A stretch of 64,000 bases of DNA from Caenorhabditis remanei (lineage: Eukaryota > Nematoda > Chromadorea > Rhabditida > Rhabditidae), in contig NC_071328.1 of assembly GCF_010183535.1 (NCBI RefSeq), positions 5,828,001 to 5,892,000 of the forward strand, read 5' to 3'. A model generated the notes under the pieces. The model was not told the origin of the DNA and ran no database searches. It worked only from the letters and a program-made list of their open reading frames with translations. Shown here in pieces: positions 1,765-46,065 of the stretch. Numbering within the stretch: the stretch's first letter is position 1; each line of letters starts with the position of its first letter. A program made the translations under genes and the position numbers.

Positions 1765-4700
1765 TTATTCTTCATCGGGAATCGCTTCTTCACTCTTTCC
1801 ACTTGACCTCAAATTCGAATCTTTGTGATATTTCTGCATCTCGCCGCCTCCTCTGGTGCTACCAACTGAAAAAAGAAGCAATTACATGAATTTAGAAGCG
1901 GATAGACTTACCTAAAGGTTCCGCCTTTCTCGATGATCTTGTCTTTCTGTTTGACCGTTTTTGCTCGTATTGGCTTTTGCGCTAAAATAAGAGAATTAGT
2001 TTTGAAAAAGAGGGATATGTCAATAATTCTATGACGTAAAGTAGAATTCGGCTTCTTTGCGCGATTAGTGTTTTGGATAACACGAATGTCTATGAAACAA
2101 AGGAAAAGGGTTCGACCCCCCCCCCCCCCCCCATCGAGTGAAAACTCACATGCTCCCTATCAACAGTCTCCGTCTCCGTTGTCCTTCTTCTCGGTTTCAG
2201 CAAGTTTCCCAGGTCCAAATTCGATTCTTCTGAAGAAAAAAAGGATTTTTCTTCAACTTTTCTCCGTCAACTCACCATCTCCAGTCTTCTCATCCACTAA
2301 TTTCCGATTTCCCTGTCCATCAAGAACATAAGTTCGTTTGACACGTGGCTTCACATCATACTCGTATCCATCGTCATCCTTTACATCATTTCTTTTGCCA
2401 TTGGATTCATCATCATCTTGAAACTCATCGGGAACCGATAGATGCCCTCCTTTAAAAAATCCTCGTTGACTAGAAACCAGTTTTGTTTTCTTACCAGGAG
2501 GTGGTTTCACGTGGCCATCCGATTTCATTGGAGGGGTTCGAGCATCGGCATCTCCTCCTTCGGTTCTGATCAATTGTCTTTTTCCATCCGGTCCGATTTT
2601 ATAGAATCTCTTCTTCTTCTTCTTCATATGGGTCATCTCTCCATCATTCAGTGGTTCCGGACTGAAAGTGTTCTTGTTCTGGCCAAGGAGTCCGTGACTC
2701 GCGGACATTCTAGGAGAGCTGTCTCCTTCCTCCTCTCGAATCAATTCTCTCTTTCCATTTGGACCAATCTTGTAGAATCTTCTTTTCTTTTTCTTCATCA
2801 CAGACTCTTCCATTCCGTTGTCAGGGTGATCATTCTCAGACTCATCTCCACCTCCTTCCGATCGAATCAGTTGCCGTTTTCCATTTGGTCCAATTTTGTA
2901 GAACCTCCTCTTCTTCTTCATATGGATCTCCTCTCCATCTTCGGGTTTGTCCATTCCAGCTTCAGAATCAGAATTCTTACGAGTCTTCTTCGCAACCTTT
3001 ACATGTTCTCCATCTGATCCAGTTGGTTGATCATCAGGTCCATCTCCATCTTCAGTTCTCACGAGTTCCCGTTTGCCATCAGGTCCAATTCTGTAGAATC
3101 TCTTCTTTTTCTTCATAACCTTCACATCTTCTCCAGAGTTGTCTCCAGATGGTTCGTCTGAAATAAAGCAGTTGGTTCATTTCTACTGCTCAAAATTAGA
3201 CTCACCTTCTCCCTCTGTTCTCACAAGCTCTCGTTTTCCATCAGGTCCAATCTTGTAGAATCTCTTCCTTTTCTTCATCTGAATCTCTTCACCAGATTGG
3301 TCATCGGGTTGGTCACTCTGAGGTTGGGAGCTCTTCCGAATCTTTTTTCCAACCTTCACATCTTCTCCATCAGCTTCAGTTGGTTCATTTTCAGAGTCAT
3401 CTCCACCTTCAGTTCTCACGAGTTCTCTCTTCCCGTCTGGTCCAATTCTGTAGAATCTTTTTCTCTTCTTCATAATCTTAACAGCTTCTCCTGATTCATC
3501 TTCAGTCGGTTGATCTGAAACAAAAACAAGGTTTTAGATTAAGTGACCCAATTGACTACAGTAAACTCACCACGGTGTGGTTTGGAGAATCCCATCTTGC
3601 CAGTCTTCACAACTTCTCCTTCACCTTCCGGGACATCTTCACCTTCCGTTCCGATCAATTGTCTCTTTCCATCAGGTCCAATCTTGTAGAATCTCTTCCT
3701 CTTCTTTACCTGAATCTCCTCTCCAGATTGGTCATCGGGCAGATCACTTTGTGGATTTGAGCTCTTCCGAATCTTTTTGGAAACTTTCACATCTTCTCCA
3801 GACTCGTCCTCGGGTAAATCGTGTGCTATCTTTCTCTTCGGTTCATCCTCTTCTTGATCAACAAGTTCTCTCTTTCCATCAGGTCCGACTCGATAAACCT
3901 TCTTCTTCCGAATCTTCACAACTTCTCCATCTTCATCAACAGCCGGTCCATCTCCCTCAGTTCGAATCAACTCCCGTTTTCCATCTGGCCCAACTCGATA
4001 GAACTTCTTTCGCTTCAACAGCTTTATTTCCTCATCTTCATCTGCATCTGCCCCCGGTTGATCAACAAGTTTTCGTTGTCCATTTGGTCCGATTCGGTAG
4101 ACTTTTTTCTTGGAGACCTTCACGATTTCCTGATCTTCATCATCATCTGGAATTTCTTCCTCATCTGGTCCTATCTTGTACATTTTTCTCTTCTTGAGAA
4201 GTTTGATCTCTTCACTCTCATCGTTACCATCATCAGGTTGCGATCCCTTCCGTCCAAACTTCACAACCTTCTTCTTGGTTACCACCACATTCTCCCCAGG
4301 TGCAGGCTTCTGATCCTTTCCAATTCTATACAACTTCTTAATGATAACATCTTCATCCAAACCACCTGGCTTCGAGCTTTTCCTTCCGATCTCCTCACTC
4401 TCTTCCTCATATTCTGGACGTCTTCTTCTTCTCCTTCCACCATCTTCTTCCTCTTCCAATGCCCTCGGTCTCTCCTCATCCTTTCTTCTCCGCCTTCTTC
4501 TCTCCACGTCATCTTCCTCAGATCCTCCGATTTTATAGTATTCCGAGTTCTTCTCACTTATCGATGGAGGTCTGGATCCCTTTCTCTCTGAGTCATGAGA
4601 ATGCGTGGTCCATCTGAATCCCTTCGGCGCCTTTCCTCTCACTGCCACTCTTCCTTCCACAAATTCCTCTTCCTCTTCACCCTCTCCTGGACGTCTTCTT

Positions 4701-7700
4701 CCTTCATCCACATTGTATTTCCTCTTCCGATTTCTCACAATAACCTTTCCATCATCCTCCACATTATCATCATCATCAAAGTTCTCCGTCTCCTCGTTTA
4801 CAATCTTCATCACCTTCAACTTCTTCACCACCGTCACCTCATGCTCCACGTCTTCTGGCGCCTCTTCTGGAATCTTCCGAATCAGAATCAATCTCTTCCG
4901 ATGACTTCTCAGTTTGACTCCCTTGAAATCATCTTCTTCACTTCCTTGAACCACTTTTCTTGTTACTTCTCGAATGTCCGGTTCCTCTCCAGAATCCGTG
5001 AACATCGGTCTCTTCCGTAACTTTCTCGGTCCCGCGTGTACTTTCACAAATCCTTCGAATTCGATGTATTCTTTGGGTTTATCCTCCTTCACGTCAACAT
5101 ATTCATCATCTTCATCATCAGGTCTCGTGTGTTTTCGAAGTGGACGACTCGACTTTTCAACCTTAACCATCGTGATGATCTCTGGATATTCTTCCTCATC
5201 ATAATAGTATTCTGGCTCAGCGGGAGTCGTTGTAGTCGTCGTTGTTGGCTTCAACTTCCGAACTTGACGAGGAATCATCACAGTCTTCCGGGTAATCTTG
5301 AAATCTGGTCCTCCAATCTCCTGAACAACCGCTTCTTCTTCAGGATATCCAGTTCCAAAGTGTTTTCGAATTCTGACTTCTCTCAACACAGCGTCTGGAT
5401 GCTTAGTGTTCTTCACCAACTTCACCACCTCTGTTGGCTCCTCCTCTTCAGGTTTCGCCTTCGTTCGGTAGGAATGTGGATGTTTCTTGGTCACAGAGAG
5501 CAGAACAACTTCCTCCTTTGGTCCAATTCTTTTCCGTGGTCTCCTCATAATCTCCTCGACGTCTTCTGAATCATCAGTCTCTGGTTCCGGCTGTGACGTC
5601 TTCATTATCATTTTCTTCACTTCAATGACTCCAGATTCATCATCTTCATCATCAGTTCCCTTCGGACGTCTTCTTCCTGGTACTTTATGAATCACTTTCT
5701 TGACGAGAATCACTCCTGCTTCTGATTCAGAATCATCATCTGGTCGTCCCTTGATCACCTTCTTTCTGATTCCAGTTGTAATTCTCACTCCGAAATTCTC
5801 ATTTCCTTCCAGATATCCTTCATCATCATCCGGTCGAAGATGCTCATGAATCTCAAACTTCTCAACAATAACTCGTTCTCCTCGAGGTGCTGGAGTAGTT
5901 GTAGTGACCGGATTGATAATGAGTTTCTTCTCCAATTTGATAGTTTTTGGAGCAGCGAGACATTCTTTAACCCATTTTTGGTACGCTTCATCATCCAAGT
6001 CATCTGTCTTCACATCAGAACATTTGAGAGATTGACGACGGGGTGGTGAAGGTGGAGTTGTGGCAGTTTCACGAGAACGACACCGTTTGATGTGCTCCTC
6101 GATCTGGAAAAATGCAGTTTGAGTTTCGAATTGAAATTGATTGAACTTTACTAACATTATTTTTCTATCTCTTTCATTAACATGCATACGGTTTCTCAAC
6201 CTTCTGTGTTAAATTTGAAGAGTTCTTGATCATACTGTCAAAAGAATTGTATTATAACGGCATGCCGTTATATTTCTCAACTTCAGAATTTCGATCAGTC
6301 ATTTCCCCCAACTAACCTCCGGATACGAAATCTTCGACAAATCGACATTGTGGCAATCGTACGAAGTTTTCCTCTCCACTTTTTTTTGAATTTCCGTTGG
6401 TTCTCTTCCCAAACACTTGACTTCATATTCAGCGTATTCTTCATCACTCATTCCATCCACATCTCGATTGTAGCATCCATCAGTTACAGGTTCATCAGTC
6501 TTATTGATCACCAGCTTTTTGATCAAAACGATTGATTTCGCAGGCGGCTGACATTCTCGTTGGTATTTGGCGTACTGAAAGAATGATATAGGTTGAATGT
6601 CTTATTAGGTAATCTTACTTCATCCTTGGAAAGATTCGTGGTATCAACAGTTCTGCAATCGAATCGGAAATGTGGATTACTCAAGCATTTCTTCTCAAAC
6701 TCTGCGTACTCCTCATCACTCATATTATCCACATCTTGATCGTAACAACTGAATTTCTCTTTTCCAGTTCGAATCTTCACTTTCTTTGTCAAAATGATAT
6801 TCTCTCCTGGACGGTATCGATCAGTGGTCACTTTCACTTTACAGTGTTTCTTGAAATCCTCGAGTTCCTCTTCACTCATCATACTCTCATCAACGATGGA
6901 GCAATCGATGCGTCGACGGATCTTAGATGGAGGAGTGGAAGCTTCTTGGGGTGGCGTGCTGAGGCATCGTTCCTTGTAGTCGGCGTACTGTAAGATAAAG
7001 GGTTACTGTAACCATAACGCGACTGCTACTGTCGAAAAGGAGATTCACAGACAGATCAGACCCCAACTTCAAGACCCTGTCTAAAGAGTGCCGACAAGCG
7101 GTAAAGAGAGACCATGAAAACTTCGCGAAGGATAGACTTCTAAATGCAGCAAACCAGAGAAAGAGTCTGAGAAAGGTCGCAAGAGACATCAATGAATATC
7201 AATCTTACATTCCATGTCTGTTATCAGGAGAGACAGGAGAAAAGCTCACTTCAAGAGAGAAAATGGAAATCGAAGTCAGACGCTTCTACTCAAACCTGTT
7301 TGCAACCAAACAGTCAAAAGCGACAACCATCATTCCTCAACAAACAAAAGCATTACCTCCATTCCTTCCAGAAGAAATCCAACACTCCCTGAACTCATTC
7401 CAAAACGGTAAAGCAGCGGGAGAAGACAAGCTATCAGCAGACTTCCTGAAAAGTTGTCACTCCTCCGTTCACAAACTTCTAGCGAACAAATTCTCACGGT
7501 ACCTTCAAGAAGGAAAAGTTCCAACAAAGTGGAAATCGTCAAAAACAACTCTAATATTCAAAAAAGGAGACAAAGAAAATCTAGAAAATTATCGTCCGAT
7601 CTGCCTGCTTCCTGTACTTTATAAAGTCTTCACGAAATGTATTCTGAATAGAATCCGGAAGTCACTGGAAGAAGCACAACCGGTCGAACAAGCAGGATTT

Positions 7701-10700
7701 AGAAGATCCTTCTCGACGATTGACCACATCCACTCAGTGCAAAGACTGCTGGAAGTCGGTCGAGAATACCAAATACCAATCACAATGGTATTTATCGACT
7801 TCAAAAAGGCATTCGACACGATCGAACCCACTGCTTTATGGGAAAGCCTGAAGACTCAAGGGATAGACTCTGGATACATAAAACTCCTAAAAGAGTGTTA
7901 CAACGATTGCTCCACCACAATCACACCTTTCTATAACCCAGTCAATATCCCCATTACCAGAGGTGTCAGACAAGGTGACCCCATTTCACCAAACCTTTTC
8001 TCTGCCTGTCTCGAATCGGCCTTCCGTCGAATGTCATGGCCACATATAAAAGAAGACAAAGATGACTACGACAACTCCCCTGGTATCAGAATTAACGGCA
8101 GAAACCTAACACACCTACGATTCGCCGACGATATCATTCTCATCTCGAAAACTCCACAAATAGCGGAAAAAATGCTACAAGAGCTGGTAAACAGTTGTGA
8201 AACAGTCGGTCTAGAAATAAACGCGAGTAAAACAAAAGTGCTGAGGAACAAATTTGCGTCAAGTCACCAAATACATATCAGAAAAAGCAACACCATGTCA
8301 GCAATTGAAGATGTTGAGGAATACGTATACTTGGGGAGACTGCTCAATACAAAAAACGATCTAGAGCCAGAAATTCACAGAAGACGACGATCGGCATGGG
8401 CTGCACTCAACAATATAAAAAACACAACAGATGCCCTGACGTGTCCGAAAATCCGAGCGCAACTTTTCGACTCCATTGTTCTCCCCGCACTGACATATGG
8501 ATCAGAAACATGGACTTTCACTAAAGCTCTATCCGAAAGAGTAAGAATAACACATGCTGCACTTGAACGTAAACTCGTCGGAATTACCCTCACGGAACAA
8601 CGAGAGAAAAACCTCCACCGAGAAGATATAAGGAAAATGTCCCAAGTGAAAGACCCTCTTGTCTTCATAACGAAACGAAAGTTAAGTTGGGCTGGCCACG
8701 TGATGAGAAGAAACGATAATCGGTGGACAACGTTACTTCAAGAATGGATACCCAGAAATGAGAAAAGGCCAGTAGGAAGACCACCAATGCGATGGGCCGA
8801 CTCCCTGAAGAAAGAAATCTCAGTGCGACAAGGAACTCAATTGATCGAACCTTGGAGCACAATCGCCAAAGATCGGAAAAAATGGATAGCTGTGATCCGC
8901 GCCCACACCAACTGAGCGAAGAACGGATCGACTAAGTAACTAAGTAAGTAAGTATAACAGGATTACTGTAGTTTGGTATCTCACCTCTTCAACACTAAGC
9001 TCTTCCACCTTCACATCATCACAATCATTCGAACTCTTGGTCGTTGTCTTCTTACACTTCTTCTTGTATTCCGCATATTCTTCTGAAGTCATTCTCTCCA
9101 CCTTCGCATTCTTACAATCATATTTTGTCCGTCTTCCACATTCCTTTTCGTATCTGATGTATTCTGAATCAGAGAGAGTGTCCACGTCAGCAGTCTCACA
9201 GTTGAATGGTTTCTTGCTGCATGCTCTTCGGAACTTTTTGAACTGAAAAACCTTTAACTCGTTTTATCTGAAGATCCAAGAAAGGGAGCTCAAAGTTTAC
9301 AATTGATAAAATATAGGAAATGAAATGTTCTATATTTTCTCAGTTGATCGTTTTTTGAAACGACTGCACACAAAGTAGATACAGACGTTCAAAGATGCAG
9401 TAAAAAGAGACGCAGGCAAGCAGTCACTCTTGCTTCTCTGCGTCTCTTTCATAGGTTTACTCACCTCTTCATCCGTCATTTTACTGACATCCGAGTTACA
9501 ATTGAATTGGAATGTCTTCCGTGGCTTTCCACATTTCTTCTTGTGTTCCGCGTACTCCTCATCACTCATATCGATCACATCTCTCTGACATTCGTCGTCT
9601 TCCTGGTTTCCAGTCGGAGGTCCATTGATTATCTTCACAGTTTTCGTCAATTCAACGTGTGGTTTTCCAGAACAATCCTTCTTGTATTGTCGATATTCCT
9701 CCTTCGTCATTCCATCCGTATTCCTATTCTGACATTCTTTGTTCGAAACAACTGTCTTTTTGACTGTAACACTTTCCGGACATCTTCGCACAAATGCAAG
9801 ATATTCCTTCTCGGAGAGATCTTCCGTGTCAACGTTGGCGCAGTTCTCATCTGAAGATTCGGGTTTTCGGCGTGGTTTGTTCTTCAGACATCTCTTTTTG
9901 TAGGCCGCGTACTGTTCAGAATTGAGCTCTTCCACCTGGATGTCGTTACAGTTATCCGATGGTTCCGAGGGTCCGTTTGGTTTCGGACGAGTCGGAGATC
10001 CACATTTTTTCTTGTAGGCGATGAACTGAATAGGATTAAATATAAATAAAGCTAAATTGATTTTCCAGATGAAATTATTCTATTTTTCATCAAATTCTAG
10101 TAAAATGTTCTCACCTCTTCCTTATCCAAATCCTCCACATTTGTATCCGAACAGTCAATTTCTCCTGGTCGAGCGGGTGGCACTCCTTCCATGTCACATT
10201 TCTTGTGGTATTCCTCTAACTCTTCTTCAGATAACTTCTCAACATCAACATCTTCACAATCTGGACTTGAATTCTTTCTTGTTGGTCGACAACGTCTTTT
10301 GTACTCTTCATACTCCTCATCACTCAACTTGGCGATCTTCACATTAGAGCAGTCATCAAGATTCTGTGGTTCCGAGCCTCCTGGTGGTCCGGATCCATCT
10401 CTTGGAGGCTTATTGATCACAACTATCTTCTTGATGGTCACGGAGTCATCTGGAGCGTGTTCACCGGATTCTGGAGATGGACGCTTTCCACATCTCTTCT
10501 TGATATCCTTGTACTCCTCGTCAGACAGATTATCGACGTCTACATCATCACAATCTGGTCTTGGAGTCTTCCTTTCTGGCTTCGACGGTCCACACTTCTT
10601 CTGATAATCCTCATATTCTGCATCTGATAGCTTGGAGACGTCAATTGAATTACAGTCATCTGAATCCTCCGACTTCACTACGACAGTCTTCTCGACGGTT

Positions 10701-13700
10701 ACAGATGGTTCCGATCCGGTATCAGGATTACCATTAATGACAACAGTCTTCTTGACAGTCACCGATTCTCCGTCAGGTGATTCTGGAGAATCTGGAGACT
10801 CAGGAGAATCAGGAGATTCAGGTTTCGGGGTCTTTCTCTCTGATCCACATCTCTTCTTATAAACCTTGTATTCGGAATCCGATAGGCTGGAGACGTCGAT
10901 TGAATCACAGTCATCTGAATCCTTTGGCTTGACAGGCTTCTTAACCGTTACAGAAGGCTCAGGATTGGTATCAGGATTTCCATTGATCACCACGGTCTTC
11001 TTGACGGTTACGGATTCTCCGTCAGGGGACTCGGGGGATTCCGGTGATTCTGGAGATTCAGGAGTTTTTCTGTCTGATCCACACCTCTTCTTATAAGCTT
11101 TGTATTCTGAATTCGAGAGGTTGGAGACATCAACGGAGTCACAGTCATCTGAATCCGGTCCTGGTCTTGATGGGTTCACAACAACTGTCTTCTCCACGGT
11201 CACATCTGGAGATCCTCTTCTCGGAGTCTCGGAGTCTCCACATTTCTTCTTATAAATCCGATATTCCTCTTCAGACAGTTCACTTGTGTCCTTCACACTA
11301 CAATCTGGAGTTCCTCGTTTCGGTTCGCAGTTCTTCTCGTAGTCGTCAAGTTCTTCAGATGACAATGTGCTCACGTCGATGTCCGAACAGTCTTCAGATC
11401 CGGAAGATCCATCAGGTTTCTTGATGACAATAGTCTTCTTGATGACGGGGGATTCTGAGGATTCTGGGGAATCTGGAGACTCATCTGGACTCAAGCATCG
11501 TTTCTTGTAGGCAAGATACTGTAAAATTATAAAAATATATCGACTGTTAGTGTTTTTTCTATTACCTCTTGTGAAGACAACTCCTCAACTTTGATATTCT
11601 TGCAACCCTTTCGACTCGGTTTTTCTGGGTAATCCGGTCCAGTTCCAGGATTTCTTCTTCCACAATTTCTCTTAAACTTCTCATACTCTTCATCCGATAA
11701 GTTGTCTACATCCACATCATCACAATCTGGGTTTGGAGACTTTCTTGTTCCACAGTCTCTCTTGTATTCCATGTACTCCTTATCACTCATTTTCTTCACA
11801 TCCACACTGGTGCAATTTTGAGAATTCGAGCCATTTGGTGGACTCATTCTTTCCTTGGATGGATCGTTTGAGCAAGACGCTTGCATCTTTTTGTATTCCT
11901 TACGGGACAGAGATTGCCAGTCGAGTTCATCGCAATACTTTTGAATGGAATCTGGAGTATGTCGGCAGCGTTCGGAGAAGGCGAGGAACTGAAAAGTAGT
12001 TTTATGGCCGAGACTATACACCATCATTATTCACTTCCTGAATACTCATTCCCTCCCAGTCCACCGAGTCACAATCAGTGTCTTCTGATTCTTCGGAAGT
12101 CGGACGTCTTCCACATTTCTTCACGTATTTCTTGTATTCCTCTTTACTCAATTCTTCCGATTTGATACCTTCGCAATCCTCATGCTCCTCTTCCACAGGA
12201 CAACGTTTCTTGTATTTGGTGAACTGAAAATTTTTACTTGAAGGCTTTTCTAATATCTGAAAACTAAGTCATACCTCCTGCTCGCTGAGCTCATCCACAT
12301 TCACATCATCACAGTCATCCTTTCCAATATTCGAGCATATCTTCTTATATTCCTTGTATTGTTCCAATGTCATTTTCTCCGTGTTTTCCTCTTTGCATTC
12401 CGGATTTTCCGATGGACGAAGACGTGGTTTGCATCTCAGTCGGTACTCATTATAGACTTTTCGAACGAGACGACGAGTTTTGAGCATTGAGCAAGCGTTG
12501 ATTGGTTCAAGACATTTTTCAGCGAAGGCTCCGTACTGGAAAGTGAGAAATTAAATCGTGTGTATAGCTTTTGTTCCCAAAAACAAACCATTCTTTCTCC
12601 CAGTTTCTCAATCGCAATATCCTTACAATCCTTCTCCAATTCACTGTCATCTCCTTCACATTTCTCCTCGTACATCTTCTGATGCTTCTTCGAAAGTGCT
12701 TCTTTCCTCTCAATTCCACAGAATAATCCACATTTTTCGACGTAATTCCGAAGTTTCTCATCACTCAGTTTGTCGACACGAACGTTGTCACAATTCTCTC
12801 CTTCGAACTTGGGTTTGCAACGTTTCTTGTAGGATTTGTACTGAAATTAGATGGTACAGTTGCTGTAGGTTACGGTAAAATTAGGGGTACTGTATCCTCT
12901 AAAGGACATCCCGGAATACTCTATCTTACAGTAACTACAAGATTATTGTAGTTTTGTGAAGGGGCTACTCCAGCTCACCTCCTCGTCACTCAAGTCATCT
13001 GGATTCACATCTTCACAGTCTGGTGAATCTCCTTCTTCTGGATTTTCTCCTGGAACACTTGAGCACCTTTTCTTGTAGGCGGAAAACTGAAATAATGCAT
13101 TCTGAATAGTTGTATGTGACTTCTGAAATCCAATACCTCCTCATCACTCAATTCATCAACGTTGACATCATCACAATCCGGCGAAGAAGAACTATCGAGA
13201 CACTCCCTCTTGTATTTCTTGTATTCACTTCTGGACATGTCATCTGGATTCTTGTCCTTACAGCTGGACGGTTTGCGAGGGCCAAGACAGTTTCGTTTGT
13301 ATTTCGAGTACTGAAATAATGTTTCGTAACGTAGCTTTTCTTCAAATTAAACCATTTTTACCTCCTTATCTGAAAGCGTGTCTGGGTCGATATCGTCACA
13401 ATCTTTCGACTTTATATTATTGGATAAGCAGTCCTTTTTATACTTTTGGTATTCTTTTGAACTCATTTCTTCAACCTTCGCATTTCTACAGTTCTCAGTG
13501 GAGTGGGGAGAATCGGAACAGTCTCGCTGGTATTTTTGGAACTGAAAAAGATAATATTAGAATCAGAAATGTTTTCCCTACTCACCTCTTCTGGACTCAG
13601 CTCTTCTGGTCGAATGGAATCACAATCCGATCGTCTTCCCTTCTTCTTCAAGCAATCAATCTTGTACTTTTCGTACTCTTCATCACTCATCTTGTCCACT

Positions 13701-16700
13701 TCAACAGTTGTGCAATCTGAAGTCTTCTTTACACAATTTCTCATGAACTTCTTGTATTCTTTCTTGCTCAAATCACTTGGTTTCACTGATTCACAATCAA
13801 GATCTTCCTTGAGACAATCCTTCAGATACTTCTCATACTCCTCGTCGCTCAACTCCTTCGGATTCTGGCTTTTACAGTCTTCCGTTTGTTTGATGCAGTC
13901 TTTTTGATACTTCTTAAGCTGCTGCTTGGTGAGTTTTCTGGGTTCCATGGATTGACAATCTTCAGATTCTTCAGAAAGACACTCTCTTTGATACCTGGCG
14001 AGCTGGAAATGGAAATGGGAGTTCGGTCGGAAAAATATGTACAGTACCGGCCAAAATTATATCATATTTTGTATTTTTCAGTTTTAAATGTCCAACTTTG
14101 AGAGTGTGTCATAGTAAAAAAATTTCTACCACAAAGTCAATTTTGTTTGGACTATACAGATAAATAGTAGAGCTCCATTTTTGTAGTTGACAACTTTTGG
14201 TACGGACACTGTCTAGCAAGTTACATATCGACAATGTAATTTCTCTCTCAAATCGACAAATTTCAGTGCAAAATAGTGCGGTTTTTAAGCTGTCCACTTA
14301 AAATGACCATAACTCTCTAGGAAGTGTCCGTACAGAAAAGTTGTCAATTACAAAAATATAGTTCTACTCTTGGTCTGTTTGATCCCATAAAAATTATTTT
14401 GTGGGTCAGTTAGTTTTACCATGACACACTCTCAAATTAGGGAGATCAACTGGAAAAGTAAAACATGATATCTTTTTGGCCGGCACTGTATGTAATGTGG
14501 ACCTGTTGACCTATTCAGCTACAAAACTATTTAGTGTTTTGATGTATCAAACAAGGGGTTCCCGAAGTGATAGACAGAAATCTGCTAGAGCCATCAGGCC
14601 GGTACCCAATAGGAATGTCTTGATGTCTAGATCTCCCTGGTTCGATTTATTTCCCTTCCGCTTACCTCATCTCCACTCAAATCCTCTGGATTGACATTCG
14701 AACAATCGAATTTCGTCTTCTTTTCCAGACATTTCTTCGCGTATTCCTCATACTTCTCCTCACTCATTTCCTCCAACTCGACGTCTTGACAATCTGGAGT
14801 TCCCTTTACACATTCTCTCTTGAATCTCTTCAATTGTTTCATGGAGAGCTTCTGAGGGTTTGAGATGTCGCAGTTGAAGTCATTTCCTCTGTTTTGTTTC
14901 GGACATTCACGTTGGTATTTGGAGTACTGAAAATATGGAAATAGGAAATGTGTTTTAACTCAGAATTTCTGATTCCATGGTCAAAATGAGAGACTTCCCA
15001 ATCCACTCACCTCCTCTTCACTCATCTCATCCACATTCTTCGAACAATCGAGTTCATCGAGACAATCTTTTCTAAACTTCTCATATTCCTCATCATTCAG
15101 GTTCTTCACTTCAATGTTTTTACAATTTGAATCCTTTTTCAAACACGCTTTTTCATATCTTTTGTACTGCTTTTCCGTCATTTCTCTTGGATCCGCAGTG
15201 GTACAATTGACTTCTTTCGAGAGGCAGTCGATCTCGTATTTCTTATACTGAAATGAGAGTAATTAGTATTTTGGAATAGAATAAGCAATGTGTTTACCTC
15301 TTCATCACTGAGATCCTTTGGATTAATATTCGCACATTCAGTCGCTGATTTCTCCTTTCCGCAGCGACGATTGTACGCGACGAGCTGAAATGTTTTTGAA
15401 ATGAGAATCTCATAGATCTTCTAGAAAAAAAATAAAGTTAAGGGTTTTCGAAGCATTCCAAAATCTGAAGCTACCGTCGTCTTCTATCTCTTTTTCGTAT
15501 TCAATGAAACTTAGATGCTTGACATCAGCTCATCGAGATCTTCCTAAAGAGTCTAATCACTACTAGATACGGTGGAAATTCCGTCCTGCCACGAAGTTAC
15601 AGTTGCTTTGGTAATGAGACCCGAAAGCTATCAAAGATTACAGAATTCGAAAGTTCCTAGAGAAAATCTAGTATGACCTACCTCTTTTCCACTCAAACTC
15701 TCAACATCCGTGTCCTTGCAGTCCCTATCAATATGTGGAGGAGAATCGGAATGACCACATTCTCGTTGATACATCTTGTACTGAAAATAGAACTTTGGTA
15801 CCGTAACCAACTACAGTAACCCTACCTCAGCTCCACTCAATTCATTTGGATGCATGCTCTCACAATCGATTGGTTCATCTTGACACTTTGACTTGTATGT
15901 CTCGTATTCCGATTTACTCATCGATTCGACATCAGCAGAGTCACAATCCTCATCGTCCTCTTCATCCAGAATACACTTCTTCTTGTACTTTTCGAATTGC
16001 TCGTCATCTAACTCTTCGATGTCCTTGACGTCACAAATACTCTTAGTCTTTCGGGTGATCGATCCGCACTTCTTTTTGAATTGGGAAAGCTGAAATTCGG
16101 GGGTTTAGAAAAGTTTTGTTTCCTGAATACTCACCTCTTTTTCGGTCATCTTCGTCTTGTCCACATCTTCACAGTTCTTAGAAGTGATGCATTTCTTTTG
16201 GAATTTGGAGAACTGAAACTCATTTTTTATGATTTCTGGTGGTGTCCCGTACTTTGTGAGCTATTTTTACTTTGAAAAATCGGGCAAAAACTCCCAACCT
16301 TATGGATATTAAAAATTTTACTAAAATCCATCGTAACTAGCTTGTTTTCAACTTTCACACTTTGAAAACTAGATAATCAAGTTCAACTCGTCAAGACCTT
16401 TCAAATGAATATAATCATGGCTAGGTTCCAAAGGCTGCCACTAGAGTACGGTAGGATCTGTGAGCGACGAGTTACTGTGCTTTCGCTGCGAGACCCGAGG
16501 TGCACCAAACCTAGTCATGACAATACTTTTCTGAATCGCAAAGACCCGCTGAATTCAAAAATGTTAACTAAAATGAGTTTGAAACAAAAGGAAGATATTA
16601 GAACTTATTAGAATAGCTCACCTCCGATTTGCTCATTTTCTTCGTTTCGACCTCTTTGCATTCCGGTCGATCATTGACAATCAATATCTTCTTCAACACA

Positions 16701-18200
16701 ATATTCTTCGGTTCCACATAACATTCCTTCACAAATAACTCGTATTCCTTCTCACTCATCTCCTTAATCTTCTTCTGAGACGCTCCACACCTTCCATTTT
16801 TGCGAATGAGATTCCGTGGTTCCCCAGGTTCTTCGATCGGATCCAAACACTGTTTCTTAAAAATCTCGAACTCCTCTTCACTCATTTTGCTTGTATTCTC
16901 TTCACACGGACACTCTTTCTCATATTTTTCTCTCTTTTTTTCATCCAAAATATCCGATGGATTCATTGAACAATTGGTCTCTCCAGTTGGTGGCAACACC
17001 GCAGTTCGATCAGTTGGAACGACTTCCGGTTGATTTCTTTCAGTTCGAATCAACTTATCAATCAATTCTTTCCTTTCCGTACTCACTGTAGTCTCACATT
17101 TCCCTTTCAGATCGACCAACTCTGCAATACTCAAACTCTCGAGATCTGCTGTGTCACAGTCGTCATCTGAATCCTCTGGACACCATGGAAGATCTTCTTC
17201 AATGGGCGGAGCTTCTTCATCGTCGAATTGGAAATCTGGCATGACGTTCTCATCCAAATGTTCTGCGACTGGCATTTCGAGCTCGTCGGCTCCTTTGAGA
17301 TGGGCGGGACGGAATCTGAAAGAGGAGTTGTTTTGGGATTGGGTTTGATTGGTCAAAAGGTTTGAGATTCATAATGGCAACTATTTGAAATTTCGCTTAC
17401 TTTGAACAAAAATTGAGAAAATCGGTCAACATGTTTTTATTAAATTAACTGTTTTCCAAAATTCACCAATACCTCAAGTTCTTCTAAAACTACCGTAATC
17501 TTTTTGATTTAGCAATGGAGCCGACATGAGACCTTTTAAGCGAGTATAACCCGAGAGTACGGTACTTCAGGTTACTGTAATCTTTCGTGGCGAGACCCAA
17601 AGGCCGCTAGATCTAGGATTTCTTTTCTACATAAAATTCTAAGCTGTGAATAAGGAATCCTCTGTTTCATGAGTCAGTCTAAACTCATAATCAAACCCCG
17701 ATAACTCACAATTTTGGTGTCGGTTGCTTACTCCTTCCATACGGATCGTTACTCTCTTCGAATCCAGGACCAATATTCAAATCTAGCAGCTGATTCGACT
17801 CCTTTCTCTGATATCTGACATTCGGTAGAGCTGTATCTCCAGAAATCACATTAACAGGCATATCCGATTGAATCATTCCTCGATTCTTCTGCATCTTCAA
17901 TGTCTGAGTTTCAGTTGAAATTGCATCTGTTTCATTCTTCGGACGAGGTCTACACTTTCCATTTTTCGTCGTTGTTGAGCGTGGAGAACGTGGAGGATTC
18001 GAGCCATTCGGAGTGTCCGGAATAGAGGGTTCGGGTGACTTGTCCTTGACGAATTCAACGAAAGTCGTCTTCGTCGACGTCTCTTGACTCGTATCAAACA
18101 GTTCACATTTCCACCGTAACTTGGCTCCAGTCAATGCGACAAGAGATATGAGGCCCAGAAGGGTCAAACTCTTGAAGCACATTTTGGAACAGGTAGACAA
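1765..18200 (-). CDS. Giant secreted modular protein with about 62 C-x19-C repeats and a Lys-rich repeat tail
   Basis: Hand-built 27-exon model, 5' to 3': 18200-17710, 17315-16622, 16212-16135, 16089-15826, 15780-15682, 15384-15298, 15247-15011, 14926-14666, 14002-13586, 13541-13362, 13310-13137, 13086-12979, 12840-12589, 12535-12275, 12223-12035, 11988-11566, 11518-10115, 10025-9465, 9242-8985, 6987-6619, 6574-6317, 6103-3571, 3514-3206, 3157-2276, 2229-2150, 1981-1912, 1865-1765. It totals 11,040 nt, or 3,679 aa. The N-terminus has a hydrophobic signal peptide (SLTLLGLISLVALTGA). About 62 modules follow: Cys, twelve residues ending in forms like LSDEE, then seven residues such as YKKYKKR and Cys. 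From exon 22 the modules give way to Asp/Glu/Lys/Arg-rich sequence and about 13 copies of a FYKIGPDGKREL-type motif. The C-terminal exons are short and basic. I recognise no named family. Secretion or an extracellular structural role is inferred from the signal peptide and paired cysteines only. A TTTTCAG acceptor lies at about 18216. Confidence 0.8.
2116..2132. repeat. Poly-C tract of 17 bases
   Basis: An uninterrupted run of 17 C lies in an intron of the giant gene (2149-1982), giving a G17 run on the transcribed sense strand. Such monotonic G tracts are known in C. elegans as fragile quadruplex-forming sites protected by the DOG-1 (FANCJ) helicase. Confidence 0.9.
2276..4330 (-). repeat. 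Coding repeats of the FYKIGPDGKREL type
   Basis: About 13 imperfect copies of a unit with the form (K/R)3-5-x-(F/V)Y(K/R)(I/V)GP(D/N)GKR(E/Q)L(V/I) are separated by 25-50 residue acidic linkers rich in D, E, G, S and P. They occupy the end of exon 22 and all of exons 23 and 24 of the giant gene. The most similar copies are in exons 23 and 24, which suggests recent local duplication. Confidence 0.85.
7011..8953 (+). mobile_element. 5'-truncated non-LTR retrotransposon (LINE, RTE-like)
   Basis: A LINE copy is inserted antisense in the 2 kb intron 8984-6988 of the giant gene. Only the reverse transcriptase part is present; no apurinic endonuclease domain is seen upstream, which is usual for copies truncated at the 5' end. 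The 3' end is short and closes in a TAAG/AAGT tandem tail at about 8931-8953, as in RTE-type elements. TTACTGTA occurs at 7003-7010 and at 8963-8970 and could be a target duplication, but this octamer is common in this DNA. The 5' boundary is therefore approximate. Confidence 0.85.
7263..8915 (+). CDS. LINE reverse transcriptase ORF (intact from truncation to stop)
   Basis: The frame is open from about 6999. The first ATG is at 7263, giving 550 aa, but translation in the complete element would start upstream in the missing part. Reverse transcriptase blocks are visible: RPICLLPVLYKVF, then FIDFKKAFDTI, then RGVRQGDPISP, then the catalytic FADDIILIS, followed by a C-terminal region containing YGSETW and WAGHVMRR that is typical of this group. 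There is no stop or frameshift, so the insertion is young or the copy is under little decay. It is unlikely to be expressed on its own because the 5' end and promoter are missing. Confidence 0.88.
   Translation: MEIEVRRFYSNLFATKQSKATTIIPQQTKALPPFLPEEIQHSLNSFQNGKAAGEDKLSADFLKSCHSSVHKLLANKFSRYLQEGKVPTKWKSSKTTLIFKKGDKENLENYRPICLLPVLYKVFTKCILNRIRKSLEEAQPVEQAGFRRSFSTIDHIHSVQRLLEVGREYQIPITMVFIDFKKAFDTIEPTALWESLKTQGIDSGYIKLLKECYNDCSTTITPFYNPVNIPITRGVRQGDPISPNLFSACLESAFRRMSWPHIKEDKDDYDNSPGIRINGRNLTHLRFADDIILISKTPQIAEKMLQELVNSCETVGLEINASKTKVLRNKFASSHQIHIRKSNTMSAIEDVEEYVYLGRLLNTKNDLEPEIHRRRRSAWAALNNIKNTTDALTCPKIRAQLFDSIVLPALTYGSETWTFTKALSERVRITHAALERKLVGITLTEQREKNLHREDIRKMSQVKDPLVFITKRKLSWAGHVMRRNDNRWTTLLQEWIPRNEKRPVGRPPMRWADSLKKEISVRQGTQLIEPWSTIAKDRKKWIAVIRAHTN
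9404..9449. repeat. Perfect 12-bp-stem hairpin in an intron
   Basis: AAAGAGACGCAG at 9404-9415 is the exact reverse complement of 9438-9449. The loop contains a second short CAAG/CTTG pair. It lies in an intron of the giant gene. A related GAGAGACGG/CTCTCTGCG arrangement occurs near 38350-38410, so it is probably part of a dispersed repeat rather than a small RNA gene. Confidence 0.6.
14042..14488. mobile_element. Tc1-type non-autonomous element (MITE), flanked by TA
   Basis: The left end TACAGTACCGGCCAAAA (14040) and the right end, whose reverse complement is TACAGTGCCGGCCAAAAA (ending 14490), form inverted repeats that continue imperfectly for about 80 bp, including a TTGAGAGTGTGTCAT block. 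The CAGTGC-GGCCAAAA start matches the Tc1 terminus as I remember it, and TA on both sides is the Tc1/mariner target. The 447 bp interior has no transposase frame. It sits in the intron of the giant gene between the exons at 14926-14666 and 14002-13586. Confidence 0.85.
16395..16530. repeat. Degenerate dispersed palindrome (GTTTCGTGGCGAGACC family)
   Basis: An intronic repeat containing ACGAGTTACTGTGCTTTCGCTGCGAGACCC-like sequence together with a flanking 'ATAATCATGG' box. Related copies occur at about 15525-15640, 17510-17610, 39331-39396, 39680-39745 and 49710-49775. The better copies have a left arm like CCACGAAACTACGGTA and a right arm like its reverse complement. It looks like a non-autonomous inverted-repeat element. 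Confidence 0.5.
17510..17610. repeat. Dispersed palindrome copy, intron 1 of the giant gene
   Basis: Contains GAGTATAAC, GTTACTGTAATCTTTCGTGG and GCGAGACCC, the right-arm signature of the same dispersed inverted-repeat family. The left arm is poorly preserved. Confidence 0.5.
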
Positions 18201-19884
18201 CTGGAGGAAGGTTGTCTGAAAAGGTGTAAGGATAGGGCAAGAGGTGGAAATAGAAAGCGAAGAAGTTCCAGAGACAATAAAAATCTACAAAATCTAAGGT
18301 GGAATGTGCATTAGAGCTCTTTGTCCGCGATCAGATGGAGGGGATCAACCTGGGTCGAGAACTAAATGAGATTGTGTAACTTTGTTTGGAATTTCGCTAA
18401 AAATTTGGTTTGACGCTGAAATTGGGTCCAGTTTCCTGGTCAAATTCTATAAAACCAGTCAAAAAATTCGAAAACTTGAAAATGTGTCGGCCCAGATTGA
18501 AGCTTCCAAGAGATAGCGCTCTTCAAAATGACGTGTTCTCTTTAACTTCTTTCAGAACTGACTAGTGAATTGGCTTATAGCAGAAAATGATCACAATTTT
18601 GAGAACGATACCACTGGATGTCTTTTATGGTAGACGGGTCCCGTCTTTTGAGGCAATGCTCATTGATTAGGTGGATCCAGTCAGTGGGAATCGAGCATTC
18701 AACTTGGAAATGGTTTAAATATGATCCGAATTGAGCAAGGAGATCGGTTATGTATCAAAATCAGCGCAGTTTCATGTTACCGTAGTCTTCTCACTGTCGG
18801 CGTCAGCGGAGGGTGAGTCCTCAACTTCGAGAACGTGGAACTTCGTTCAGAATAGCTCTAGAAAGAGAGTTTCGGTCTCCAAATGAACAGAATTTCAACG
18901 ACTATGAACGGATGTAAGGAAATAATTCGATCTCATCTGATAACTATATTAGACACTTTGCAGTAGTTGGCTAAAAAGTTTATTTTATTACCGAAACGCG
19001 GGTAATCTCAGGAGCTACCAGCTCATGCAAGCTTAACTATCAGAAATGTGCTCGAAAACAACAAAAAACTCTTTCTTATCAAGCTAGGACTCATCCGACT
19101 AAAAAGAACTATAAAAAAAGAGCAATCTCAAAACCCACAAGCCTATCAGATATGACACCAGTTGAAAAAGAAGAGCTCAACGAGAAACAAAGCTTCGAAA
19201 AGAAATCTTCGAAAGAAGGATCTAGAAAGAAAATCGTACAAAACCGAGAAATGACAAGACACCGGCTCTCTCCTCTCGCCTTTATTCTGAAACTGGGTGA
19301 CTGTCGGTTCTCATCACCGATTCTGGGAACCGTGGGCGCTGAAAGACGGGAAGCCGACACAAGATGAGAAAGTGAGCTGTGAATGGAAGGAGGTGATCAA
19401 AAATCTGGAAGAGAATGAAAAAGAAAACGAATGAATCATTAAAACTATCCGTTTATTATTAAAGAACACTGTAGATGAAGTGGGTGTATATAATATCAAA
19501 GTCAAGCAATAAAGAGAACATCAAATTGCTCAAATAAAACGAGAAAAAAAGTAACAAGAATACCCAAAAGTGGGGAGGAAGAGGAAGAAAAGTGAAACCC
19601 AACGGGGGAAAGCTTTCGGAAAGAATCAGAAGACGTTGAATGAATGTCCCGCACAAAAGTCAAGTAAAATGCTACTGTTGGAAAGGAGACTAGAAAATGG
19701 AAAATATAACCGGAAAGTATGGAAACAACTGTTTGAAAAAGGCTGAAAAGTTAACAATAAAGAAATTTTCGAAAAAAAAACAACAGGAAGAAAATACCCA
19801 GAAGAACATAAATGCACTGACCATCACAGATGAGTGATCAAGAAAAGGGGAAATATGGTACCTATTTACAAAAAAAAGGTTAGA
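18201..19884. other. Intergenic region upstream of the giant gene
   Basis: A 1.7 kb stretch lies between the giant gene start and the 3' end of the MROH1 gene. I see no exon with splice and coding support. A TTTTCAG acceptor on the minus strand at about 18216-18222 sits just before the giant gene start. The frame at 19152-19367 has no supporting evidence. TTTATTATTA at about 19450 could serve as an MROH1 polyadenylation signal on the minus strand, but it is distant from the stop. Confidence 0.5.
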
Positions 19885-32739: not shown

Positions 32740-35700
32740 TTACAAAAGATCAGGATCGAAAGCTGGCATGGAAATGGATGCGTTGGCGGCACGAATGGAT
32801 CTTTTACCCCATCCTCCACCTCCCCATCCACCTCCTCCTCCACCCCATCCTCCGCCTCCATTACCCCATCTGGATCCACCCCATGGATCACCTCCTCCCC
32901 ATCCACCTCCTCCATTTCCACCCCATCCACTGTCACCACCTCCAAAGTCATCACGACCCCATCCTCCACGTGGTGGTTGACGAGACGGATTGTTCTGACG
33001 GACTTGAGCAACTGGAGCAACAGAGCCAGCTTGTGTTCCACACATTCTACGGAGTTCTGATTGAGTATAGCAACTGTTACAACTCGATCGACAGTTCTCA
33101 GCCATCCAAGGATTCTTCTGACACTCTCCGACACGAGCCCAGCCGGCACAGGAGCGGTGATAGTCGACGCAGGCTGGAATTCTTTTTTCGTATTGATTAC
33201 AAAAAATTGGACTCACATCCATAATTATAGTCCTCTGGGAAGCAATGACCACAAGAAACGCGACAATTACATGCCATATATCTCGCATTCTTTCTGCATT
33301 CACCCATCAATCCCCACACTGCACAACACACGTTCTCATTGAAACATCCATCAGAATTGTCACATTGTTGAGCTGGGGATACGGTAGTTGTGGTTACTGT
33401 ACCACCACTGCCACACTCTTGAGCACGAGAGCGACCGCATTTACTGCAAGACTTTCTGCAATTTTCAGTCATCCAGAGAGCGTTTTTCGTGCATTCTCCT
33501 GAGCGAGACCAGCTGGCACATTGGGTGTGACGGTCGGTGCAATCTGGAAGGAATTCGACTTTGAACGTTCATAAATCTGTCAGTTTTGATTGCATCGAAA
33601 AATGATCAACTGCGGACATGTAGAAAATGTAACACTCTTTATTTTGTTAGTTGACAACTTTTGTCTAGCTCTAAAAAAATCTGCCTCCACTTAGATTGTA
33701 TCAAAAAGTGATTAACTGATACAATTAAGATAATCTCATGGTTTACATTTTGCTAGTTGTTAAGTTTTGAGTTTCTTTTTGATCTTTTGAGATAACCCAC
33801 AACGTGGTAAGAGCTTCTCTCTCCGTTTCTACTTCGAACGCTCATATCTCTGTGATTTCTAGTTGTATCAAAAAGTGGTCAATAGATAAAATTTACAAAA
33901 AGTTATGTTCTATATTTTATCAGTTGATCATGTTTGTTTAGCTTTTGAAGTTTCTGAGATAAACGCGTTACTAATAACCAACTGTTCCAATTCGTGGTCC
34001 GCCGTGAGCGACTTACCATCAGCCAATCGGTATTTCGGCTTACAAACTCCACAACTAGCCTTGCACCATTCATTCATATAGGCCGTATTTCTAGAACATT
34101 CTCCCGACGCCGCCCACGAAGCACAACACTGATTTTCATTGAAACAAGACTCTTGAGATTGAACTGGATTTTGATTGGCTGGTGGAGGAGTTGTTGGTGG
34201 TGGAGTTGGTGGAGGAGCAGTTGAAGAGATCACACATACTCCGTTACGACAGACACCGGAGAAGCAGGGGTTCACACGGAAGTTACCGCATTGGGAGCCA
34301 GGACGGATACGGGAGACACAACGGGCGACTCCGGTGGATGTGTCGCAGAAGAGGAATCTGGAAATTGATGTTTTCAGGATTCAGAAGTTTCTTAGAGAGA
34401 GCGCCCAGACGACGAGACACTGTAGCCGTCTGCGCTCTAACTTCTTCGCGTTGTCACTGAGCTCACAGGCGAGCTAGAAAAGTCACATGTGCAGCTCTTT
34501 CAAATGAACTCAGGTTTTAAGTGTTCAATTTCAAATGACTACAGTAACCCATAACTCACTTGGATCCACAATCTCCGCCAGCCTGACAAGTTGGTCTTGG
34601 TGCATAACTGTAGAGGTTATCAGTGAATTTATTGGATAGGCCATCGATGTTTCTGAAAATTTTATTGCATAAATTCTGACAGTCAGTGTGATTAGGCTCC
34701 GCCCACAAATGCAATTTCGCCTGGTTTTCTATAGAGATCAGTTTTTGTATGAGTGAGATAGGAAATATAAAATTAGAATAAGTTCTAATCAGAACAGTCA
34801 TGACACGGTTTTAAAAACAGCGCCCCACCACAAAAACTACTGAAACTCTATATTTCGTAGTCTATTCCTTATAAAAGTAAATTTTTTGAAGCCAACTGAC
34901 CTCATCGGACTGAACGGTTGCATTGGTGAAGCTCCGAAATGTTGTGGAGAAGCACACAACTGATTATCCGGTGGGAATGCAATCTCTCTATCAGCTCTCG
35001 ACTGTCTCGCAAGTCTCCACATTTCCCAAACGAAATCAACGAAGGCGTGATGAAGGAAGAAGGAGGGATCGTTGGATGACGTGGCAGTATCAAACATATC
35101 TCCTCCGACAAAGATATGAACATTTCCATGAGTGTATTCAAGACAATTGAAGTCAGTTCGATATGGACATCCTTGTTGAGGAGCAGTGAATGAAAGCACT
35201 TGATCTATCTGGGTTTGTCTCATTACAAAATCAATATCTGCTTGAGAAAGAGGCGCTCCTTGTGCTCCGACTGCTCTCTGGATTTGAGGTCTTCCAGCGA
35301 GTGTTCTCCAATTAGTGAAGGGTCCGTTGTTGACGAGACCAGTACCTCCGACGAGATATTCACTGGAAAAAATCGGTGTAGATGGAAATACAGACACACA
35401 GATAGATACCTGAACATAATCGTATCAGCTGGGCGTGGAAGACCACTATCCAGAGTGGAATCCCAATATGGAAGATTGACAGTTGGGTCGACTTGACGGA
35501 GAGCAAACTCGACACGTTTTACGAATTCACGATGCCATGGAAGGAAAGCGGGACCTGAGTGAGCACCTCCGGCGGCTGACATTTGGGAATGGATTCGACC
35601 GATTCTCTCGTATTCTCCATTCTGGAAATCGGTAAGTTACGGCTAACTAGGGAAGGTCATGGACTCAGCTTGGAGTTATTTATATATCATTGGAAAGCTG

Positions 35701-44908: not shown

Positions 44909-46065
44909 ATGTCAACCACAAGTTCTGTACTTCTCTTCATCACTTCCGTTTGCGGTGTCACAATTCTCTCCAGTCTTTTCATAGCTGGATCTTTGTACTT
45001 TGATGCTCAAGAGTTCCTGGAAACTTCTCTAGATGAAATTGAATCTTTCAAGGTATTTAGTTCTCCACTTCTTCAAAACGAAATCAGATTTTTAGCACTA
45101 CTCTGATGTCGCATGGAAAGATATGGTCTCCTCGAACACATTCGACAGAAAGAAGAGAGAAGACGATAAACCATGTGGATGCGCCTGTGCCAACGGACCA
45201 AATAATTGCCCACCAGGAGAGGCTGGACCACCCGGAGCACCAGGACTTCCAGGTTAGACAACAGAAAAAAGCAAAAACCGTTTCGACCACGGCAGGATTC
45301 GAACCTACAATCTTCTGCTCCGTAGGCAGACGCGTTATCCATTGCGCCACGCGGCCACGATTTGATCTAGATTCTCAAGCCCTATAGAAATTTGCGCCCA
45401 CCGCCTCTTGGAATTTCGCAACATGTGTATGCGAGCAGGTTATTAGTGTAATTTCTCGAGTGTTGGCAGCTCTTGAGTATCTTGGAGGCAGTAGACGAAG
45501 ATTTATTTATATTTGATTTACAGGAGCCGATGGAGAAGCTGGAAACCCAGGAAAAGACGGAAACGCCGGATCTTCTTTGATCTTCGAAGACGAGAAACTT
45601 CCATGCATCAAGTGCCCAGCCGGAGAGCCAGGACCAGCTGGACCAGATGGAGCTCCAGGTGCTCCAGGACCAGATGGACAACCAGGAGCTCCAGGAGCCG
45701 CTGGAAATCCAGGAGCGGCTGGAGAAACCGGACCAGAAGGTGAACCAGGAGATGCTGGAGCAGCAGGAGAGGCCGGACCTCCAGGAGCACCAGGAAAGAA
45801 TGGACAACGTGGATCAGGAGCACCTGGACCAGCTGGACCAGAAGGACCTGTTGGAGAACCAGGAAAAGATGGACAGCCAGGAGCAAACGGAGAAGTTGGA
45901 GCAGATGGAAGTGAAGGAATTCAAGGAGCTCCAGGAAAGGATGGAGAAAAAGGAAGTGATGGAGTGGCTGGAGGAGATGGAACACCAGGAGCCCCTGGAC
46001 CAGATGCCGCTTATTGTTCGTGTCCAGAGAGAACTAAGCTTGTGTTCGCCAGTGAATCTCCATAG
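44909..46065 (+). CDS. col-54: Cuticle collagen
   Basis: Exons 44909-45052, 45096-45252 and 45524-46065 give 280 aa. The N-terminal hydrophobic segment (VCGVTILSSLFIAGSLYF) is the usual collagen signal anchor. RKKR at about residue 65 is the subtilisin-like cleavage site that releases nematode cuticle collagens. Short Cys clusters (CGCACANGPNNC, CIKC and a terminal CSC) flank Gly-X-Y blocks, the main one beginning GEPGPAGPDGAPGAPG. From family knowledge it trimerises and is secreted from hypodermis into the cuticle. Intron 2 holds an intact tRNA-Arg gene on the opposite strand. The symbol is from remembered position next to ceh-12 and is tentative. Confidence 0.92.
45284..45356 (-). tRNA. tRNA-Arg (ACG)
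   Basis: A 73-base cloverleaf with acceptor GGCCGCG/CGTGGTC, U8 present, anticodon loop CTACGGA (anticodon ACG) and T loop TTCGAAT on a stem with one G-U pair. A TTTTTT-type terminator follows on the minus strand. It lies inside collagen intron 2, antisense to the host gene. Confidence 0.92.

Follow-up and report, generated by a model that had tools for sequence, protein, structure and literature searches.

A giant Caenorhabditis remanei gene model with 62 two-cysteine modules and a cysteine-free tail, candidate for a structural protein of the extracellular matrix

Along the minus strand of the 64,000-nucleotide stretch of Caenorhabditis remanei DNA analysed here (the window), paired cysteine codons recur at a nearly constant distance over many exons, which raises the questions of whether they belong to one gene, what unit they form and what such a protein may do. 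The gene was modelled by dynamic-programming splicing with GT-AG introns only and training on its own long frames, and the end of exon 1 was placed by hand at 17710, the sole open-frame choice among four ends tried. This gave a single minus-strand model from the ATG at 18182 to 1765 (stop codon 1765-1767) with 27 exons and 3,673 amino acids. An earlier note on this DNA had proposed one protein of 3,679 residues, of which the single giant gene stands while the length does not; its "over 20 exons" agrees with the module-bearing exons, 2 to 22 of the 27. It mentioned neither the cysteine-free residues 2401-3673 nor a reverse-transcriptase ORF inside an intron, both described below. The model is preceded on the same strand by a short 5' leader (18183-18215), read from the sequence, after a TTTTCAG acceptor ending at 18216, which is possibly a trans-splice acceptor or that of an intron in the 5' UTR. 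The ATG opens a hydrophobic segment (residues 1-20; 18123-18182, minus strand) that resembles a signal peptide by hydropathy, as the earlier note had held. The highest 19-residue hydropathy value of the protein begins at residues 1-2, the best beyond residue 60 reaches 0.6, and the same scan over the whole protein found no other strongly hydrophobic segment past the N-terminus.

Protein searches returned three fragments from other contigs. The query with exon 17 gave a single protein, P0001 (36 percent over 72 percent), and that with exon 9 had no match. Two proteins matched the large exon of the tail: P0002 (62 percent over 98 percent) and P0003 (54 percent over 95 percent). P0001 and P0003, whose contigs have the same length of 33,622, probably belong to one gene, and P0001/P0003 and P0002 presumably represent two nematode species. 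At their ends P0001 and P0003 read past splice positions of our model, and P0002 starts just before one, ahead of residue 2350. These fragments show conserved coding sequence for both modules and tail. Absence of further matches from these collections is no evidence for narrow spread. The own genome (130,466,896 bases in 186 contigs) was searched in six frames with three exon proteins, and among the matches listed, which are best candidates and give lower bounds, 22 of 23, 17 of 17 and 5 of 5 lay inside this gene. The sole listed match elsewhere, C3:4232957 (E 0.1, 32 percent), is doubtful and was not counted as a paralogue. With no convincing second copy among the best candidates for these three queries, the giant gene is apparently single-copy.

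The case for a single mRNA consists of the reading frame, the splice sites and the fragments from other contigs. It seems improbable that two or more genes were wrongly joined in the model, such as one gene for the cysteine modules and another for the tail, although P0001 and P0003 are entered as separate proteins, as expected from single-exon callers. Against such a fusion, a single exon (6103-3571) runs in one reading frame from the last part of module 61 through module 62 into the conserved core of the tail, and module 62 is likewise fused to the conserved core in P0002.

What, then, is the repeated unit? From residue 211 onward, all 124 cysteines form 62 consecutive pairs, which define 62 modules in residues 211-2397 (5960-17158, minus strand; cysteine pairing with shuffle control); cysteines 26, 77 and 203 fall outside them and have no partner assigned. 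The spacing is x19 in 57 modules, x18 in four and x21 in one, so that the earlier description of about 62 near-regular modules holds, with exact x19 spacing in 57 only. Pairing within modules is favoured for the disulfides because all 124 cysteines pair in this way while the inter-module linkers differ widely in length (1 to 64 residues; median 10). Most modules enclose L/M-S-x-x-E-Y-x-x-Y between their two cysteines. The first position of this core is L, M or I in 62/62 and the second S, T, D or N in 60/62, the Tyr is present in 40/62 and a second Tyr three residues on in 42/62, and six modules are atypical under the full core pattern. The LSDEEY-like centre noticed earlier corresponds to S/T/D/N-x-x-E/Q/D, found in 55/62. 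A plain C-x19-C regular expression also counts 62, but five of its matches are 19-residue linkers between modules, and the agreement of the two totals is thus partly accidental. In 2,000 shuffles of residues 203-2400, C-x19-C occurred 2.3 times on average and at most 8 times, compared with the 62 regex counts, and a stricter core pattern, with 46 occurrences in the protein, was never found.

Counted by its helices, exon 9 (13586-14002, minus strand), the source of both structure queries below, has five modules, of which four are complete and have 6-residue linkers. Exon 17 (10115-11518, minus strand), which finds P0001, has nine by helix count, separated by long Pro/Ser/Glu linkers with strand-like V-x-V-K-K motifs of a kind found both in inter-module linkers and in the tail. 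Two near-identical SVTVKKTVVINGNPDT blocks lie in the exon 17 linkers between modules 42 and 44; together with the identity of 17/21 residues between modules 42 and 43, this block pair suggests a recent internal duplication. The longest good alignment with P0001 covers residues 1687-1872 (47 percent). Six modules of P0001, taken in order, have their best matches in window modules 20, 8, 37, 27, 46 and 47, a scrambling which implies that modules turn over or are too short for one-to-one pairing. Module order appears to be kept only partly between the two.

AlphaFold2 models of adjacent modules gave a single short helix per module, in line with the helical unit proposed in the earlier note. The two-module model (pLDDT 82.3, pTM 0.56) has helices at 13-23 and 40-50, the first of which starts immediately past the conserved Ser12, and in the four-module model (pLDDT 73.2, pTM 0.46) the main helix recurs in every module. 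The pLDDT values are moderate and the pTM values low. Each query gave five models, among which one was poor for the module pair (60.2) and two were poor for the four-module stretch (58.5 and 53.6). The underlying alignments, of 14 and 8 rows, came nearly all from the same gene, and two of the 8 rows were pieces of the query; the 14 rows represent 14 of 15 in-exon pairs obtained, with further in-exon pairs and a pair split by an intron left out. The module is thus predicted to consist of a short loop and one helix whose first turn begins directly behind the conserved Ser. We read the core as a capping box with a hydrophobic staple, in which the Ser and the Glu three residues later would form the box and the Leu/Met...Tyr pair the staple. 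A putative disulfide between both cysteines of one module would tie the loop to the end of the helix.

The same residues invite two other readings. The conserved Ser could be a phosphorylation site in S-x-E, the preference of the secretory kinase FAMK-1, which would make the array a regulated acidic polymer of a secreted phosphoprotein. S-x-E occurs at the cap in 22/62 modules, and C. elegans FAMK-1 is described as having a Fam20C-like SxE preference and roles in fertility and embryogenesis (PMC7948968). This reading is unlikely, as helix capping already accounts for the Ser, and only 22 of the 47 cap serines have Glu at +2, where Glu makes up 13.1 percent of the surrounding region. The acidic residues ahead of the helix could instead hold ions like those of an EF-hand or a thrombospondin type 3 repeat, in a metal- or calcium-binding polymer such as the earlier note had suggested. 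Several modules have C-D-D-V-D-V-D or similar, among the 62 regex matches (five of them linkers) D or E occupies column 7 in 36 cases and column 5 in 32, and residues 203-2400 carry a net charge of -103 (K+R-D-E). On the other hand, no acidic position ahead of the helix is ever fixed, the top single residue being D at column 5 in 25/62 regex matches, and P, K, N or T stands at these positions in many modules. Moreover, neither EF-hand nor thrombospondin type 3 (TSP_3) nor another calcium-binding repeat was matched in six exon pieces at Pfam E up to 10. Metal binding has no support in these modules and exon pieces and is improbable, and we prefer the capped helix as the account of the core.

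The introns of the array give a hint as to how it grew. All 20 intra-module introns of the model share phase 0 and one position, exactly eight residues ahead of the closing Cys, with GAG on the exon side at 17 of them. Since all module introns sit at one codon, growth by repeated phase-0 exon duplication would explain the array best; repeated intron gain at GAG sites is possible as an alternative. Under exon duplication, the fixed intron site would be a clean example of a protein growing exon by exon. One 1,997-base intron between two module exons (6988-8984) contains, on the plus strand, a reverse-transcriptase ORF (6999-8915, 638 aa; RVT_1, E 4.2e-35) followed downstream by short tandem TAAG-like repeats, and this ORF is suggestive of a non-LTR element truncated at its 5' end.

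The module matched no catalogued family in the searches made. Pfam, run with six pieces of the 27 exons at E up to 10, gave no credible family for it, nor anything credible in P0001-P0003, and every NCBIfam match of five exon pieces fell under its cut-off. In the exon pieces scanned, Pfam and NCBIfam pointed to neither an enzyme nor a known binding domain that we hold credible. SPG4 did exceed its Pfam cut-off (31.6 versus 25) in a Ser-Pro-Glu linker, where we took it as low complexity with no individually significant stretch; DUF7083, PadR and ZNF380_CC, among the remaining Pfam matches, were under cut-off. PDB sequence searches covered one exon and one module-pair profile. The exon returned a spore germination protein, 4o8w (E 0.0025, query 48-135), as its single match, taken as composition-driven, and the module-pair profile reached a best E of 1.1. 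Foldseek found 0 matches in the PDB at E up to 10 for the two- and four-module models, which is weak evidence because the unit is so small. A BFVD search with the two-module model reached a best E of only 5.0, and no relative was found in the viral contigs searched. No paper on this protein turned up in the literature searched, as far as titles show. The earlier note, which knew of no named domain with this spacing, is thus borne out for the exon pieces searched in Pfam, NCBIfam and PDB and with Foldseek.

In spirit, the nearest known domain is the cysteine-cradle domain (PF23626) of SPIA-1 and DPY-6, described as C-x22-C-x7-P-x3-C-x9-C with four helices and one copy near the C-terminus (PMC11925461). 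The cradle proteins are nematode-specific, predicted to be secreted and largely of low complexity, with a small helical unit held by disulfides; our protein is probably like them in these respects, its disulfide being putative. It differs from the cradle's four cysteines, four helices and single copy in having two cysteines, one main helix and 62 copies of the unit. The module spacings of x19, x18 and x21 depart from that of the cradle, and PF23626 was not matched in the six exon pieces of 27 exons at Pfam E up to 10.

The remainder of the protein is of another kind. Residues 2401-3673 (1,273 residues) lack cysteine altogether, and K, E, R, D and G are abundant in them. The best conserved stretch of the whole protein, by eye, is a core at about residues 2385-2870 (approximately 4541-6000, minus strand; fragment alignments), whose start holds the end of module 62 and whose rest is cysteine-free. 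Further on, a pattern search found the motif [FV]Y[KR][IV]G(P)-D/N-G-K-R repeated in an array across exons 22-24 (approximately 2560-4330, minus strand), with 12 copies by a loose and 10 by a strict pattern in the window and about 10 and 8 in P0003. To us these FYRIGPDGKRELV-like repeats look like beta hairpins around a D/N-G turn, and we rank this above their being copies of amidated peptides, which is less likely. In addition, a Gly-rich run at residues 1003-1041 of P0003 scored 25.8 against the Pfam Collagen cut-off of 27.2, and the aligned window exon is without the run.

Neuropeptide precursors have a repeated short motif, dibasic sites and a C-terminal Gly. The tail resembles them in its repeated short motif, dibasic sites and Gly-Lys-Arg, and could in principle be a multi-copy precursor of amidated peptides (e.g. 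FYRIGPD-amide) with the cysteine modules as the propart of a prepropeptide. A dibasic site before the copy and Gly with two basic residues after it are found in 9/10 strict-pattern copies of the window and 8/8 of P0003, and P0002 retains Gly and two basic residues in 4/10. Both processing sites, however, are kept in only 3/10 strict-pattern copies of P0002, and these copies still read as hairpins, partly by construction, as the pattern itself requires the aromatic residue and D/N-G. Moreover, of the 12 window copies under the loose pattern, three (at residues 2941, 2991 and 3018) have no G-K-R, nor have two further copies in P0003 (482 and 759). In the window and P0003, E-L-V-R-T-E after the K-R, past the would-be cleavage site, appears by eye no less conserved than the putative peptide itself. 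FYKIGP, FYRIGP and RIGPD had no match in the literature text searched, and the one match of KIGPD, as far as that text goes, was a paper on liver metabolism. The giant cysteine array also sets the protein apart from neuropeptide precursors. We consider a peptide precursor distinctly unlikely and retain the hairpins.

With modest confidence, we favour a giant structural protein of the extracellular matrix, made of helical beads and a strand-rich tail, a role suggested by the architecture alone. The N-terminal two thirds would behave in the secretory space like some 60 small beads on a flexible string, enlarged by duplication of phase-0 exons, and the strands and hairpins of the tail, possibly with the module tyrosines, may serve assembly or cross-linking. 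Secretion, disulfides, tissue and function of the giant protein are what we infer from its sequence. Matrix proteins in which a signal peptide is followed by a long array of repeats include the fibrillin-related FBN-1 and epicuticlins, and DPY-6 is described as mucin-like (PMC11925461). Our protein shares with these three a long repeat array behind its N-terminus, here signal-like, but lacks their Pfam domains in the scanned pieces and has a Cys pair with one capped helix as its unit. Giant repetitive secreted proteins are a known kind, and it is the module and its proposed mode of growth that are new: a very small repeat for holding an extracellular fold. More tentatively, and with less confidence than in the matrix role, we suggest that the module may be a new minimal extracellular fold of about 21 residues, with one disulfide and one capped helix, so far uncatalogued, and that its 62-copy array in a nematode may be a cross-linkable matrix filament grown by duplication of a single phase-0 exon.

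The giant gene adjoins a GPN/ATP_bind_1 GTPase gene on the left and a HEAT-repeat gene on the right. The left-hand GTPase, of GPN type, agrees with B0207.6 of C. elegans, a gene of chromosome I given as "unknown GTPase" (PMC3820814), so that cosmid B0207 may also carry the C. elegans counterpart of the giant gene. This counterpart is possibly B0207.5, for which no paper was found by gene name. Some 15 kb away from the giant gene, ORFs on the minus strand (32743-35424) have two ShK domains along with a tyrosinase domain and are, by position, a possible tyrosine-modifying neighbour. An ORF on the plus strand at 45517-46065 has, by eye, collagen-like Gly-Pro repeats.
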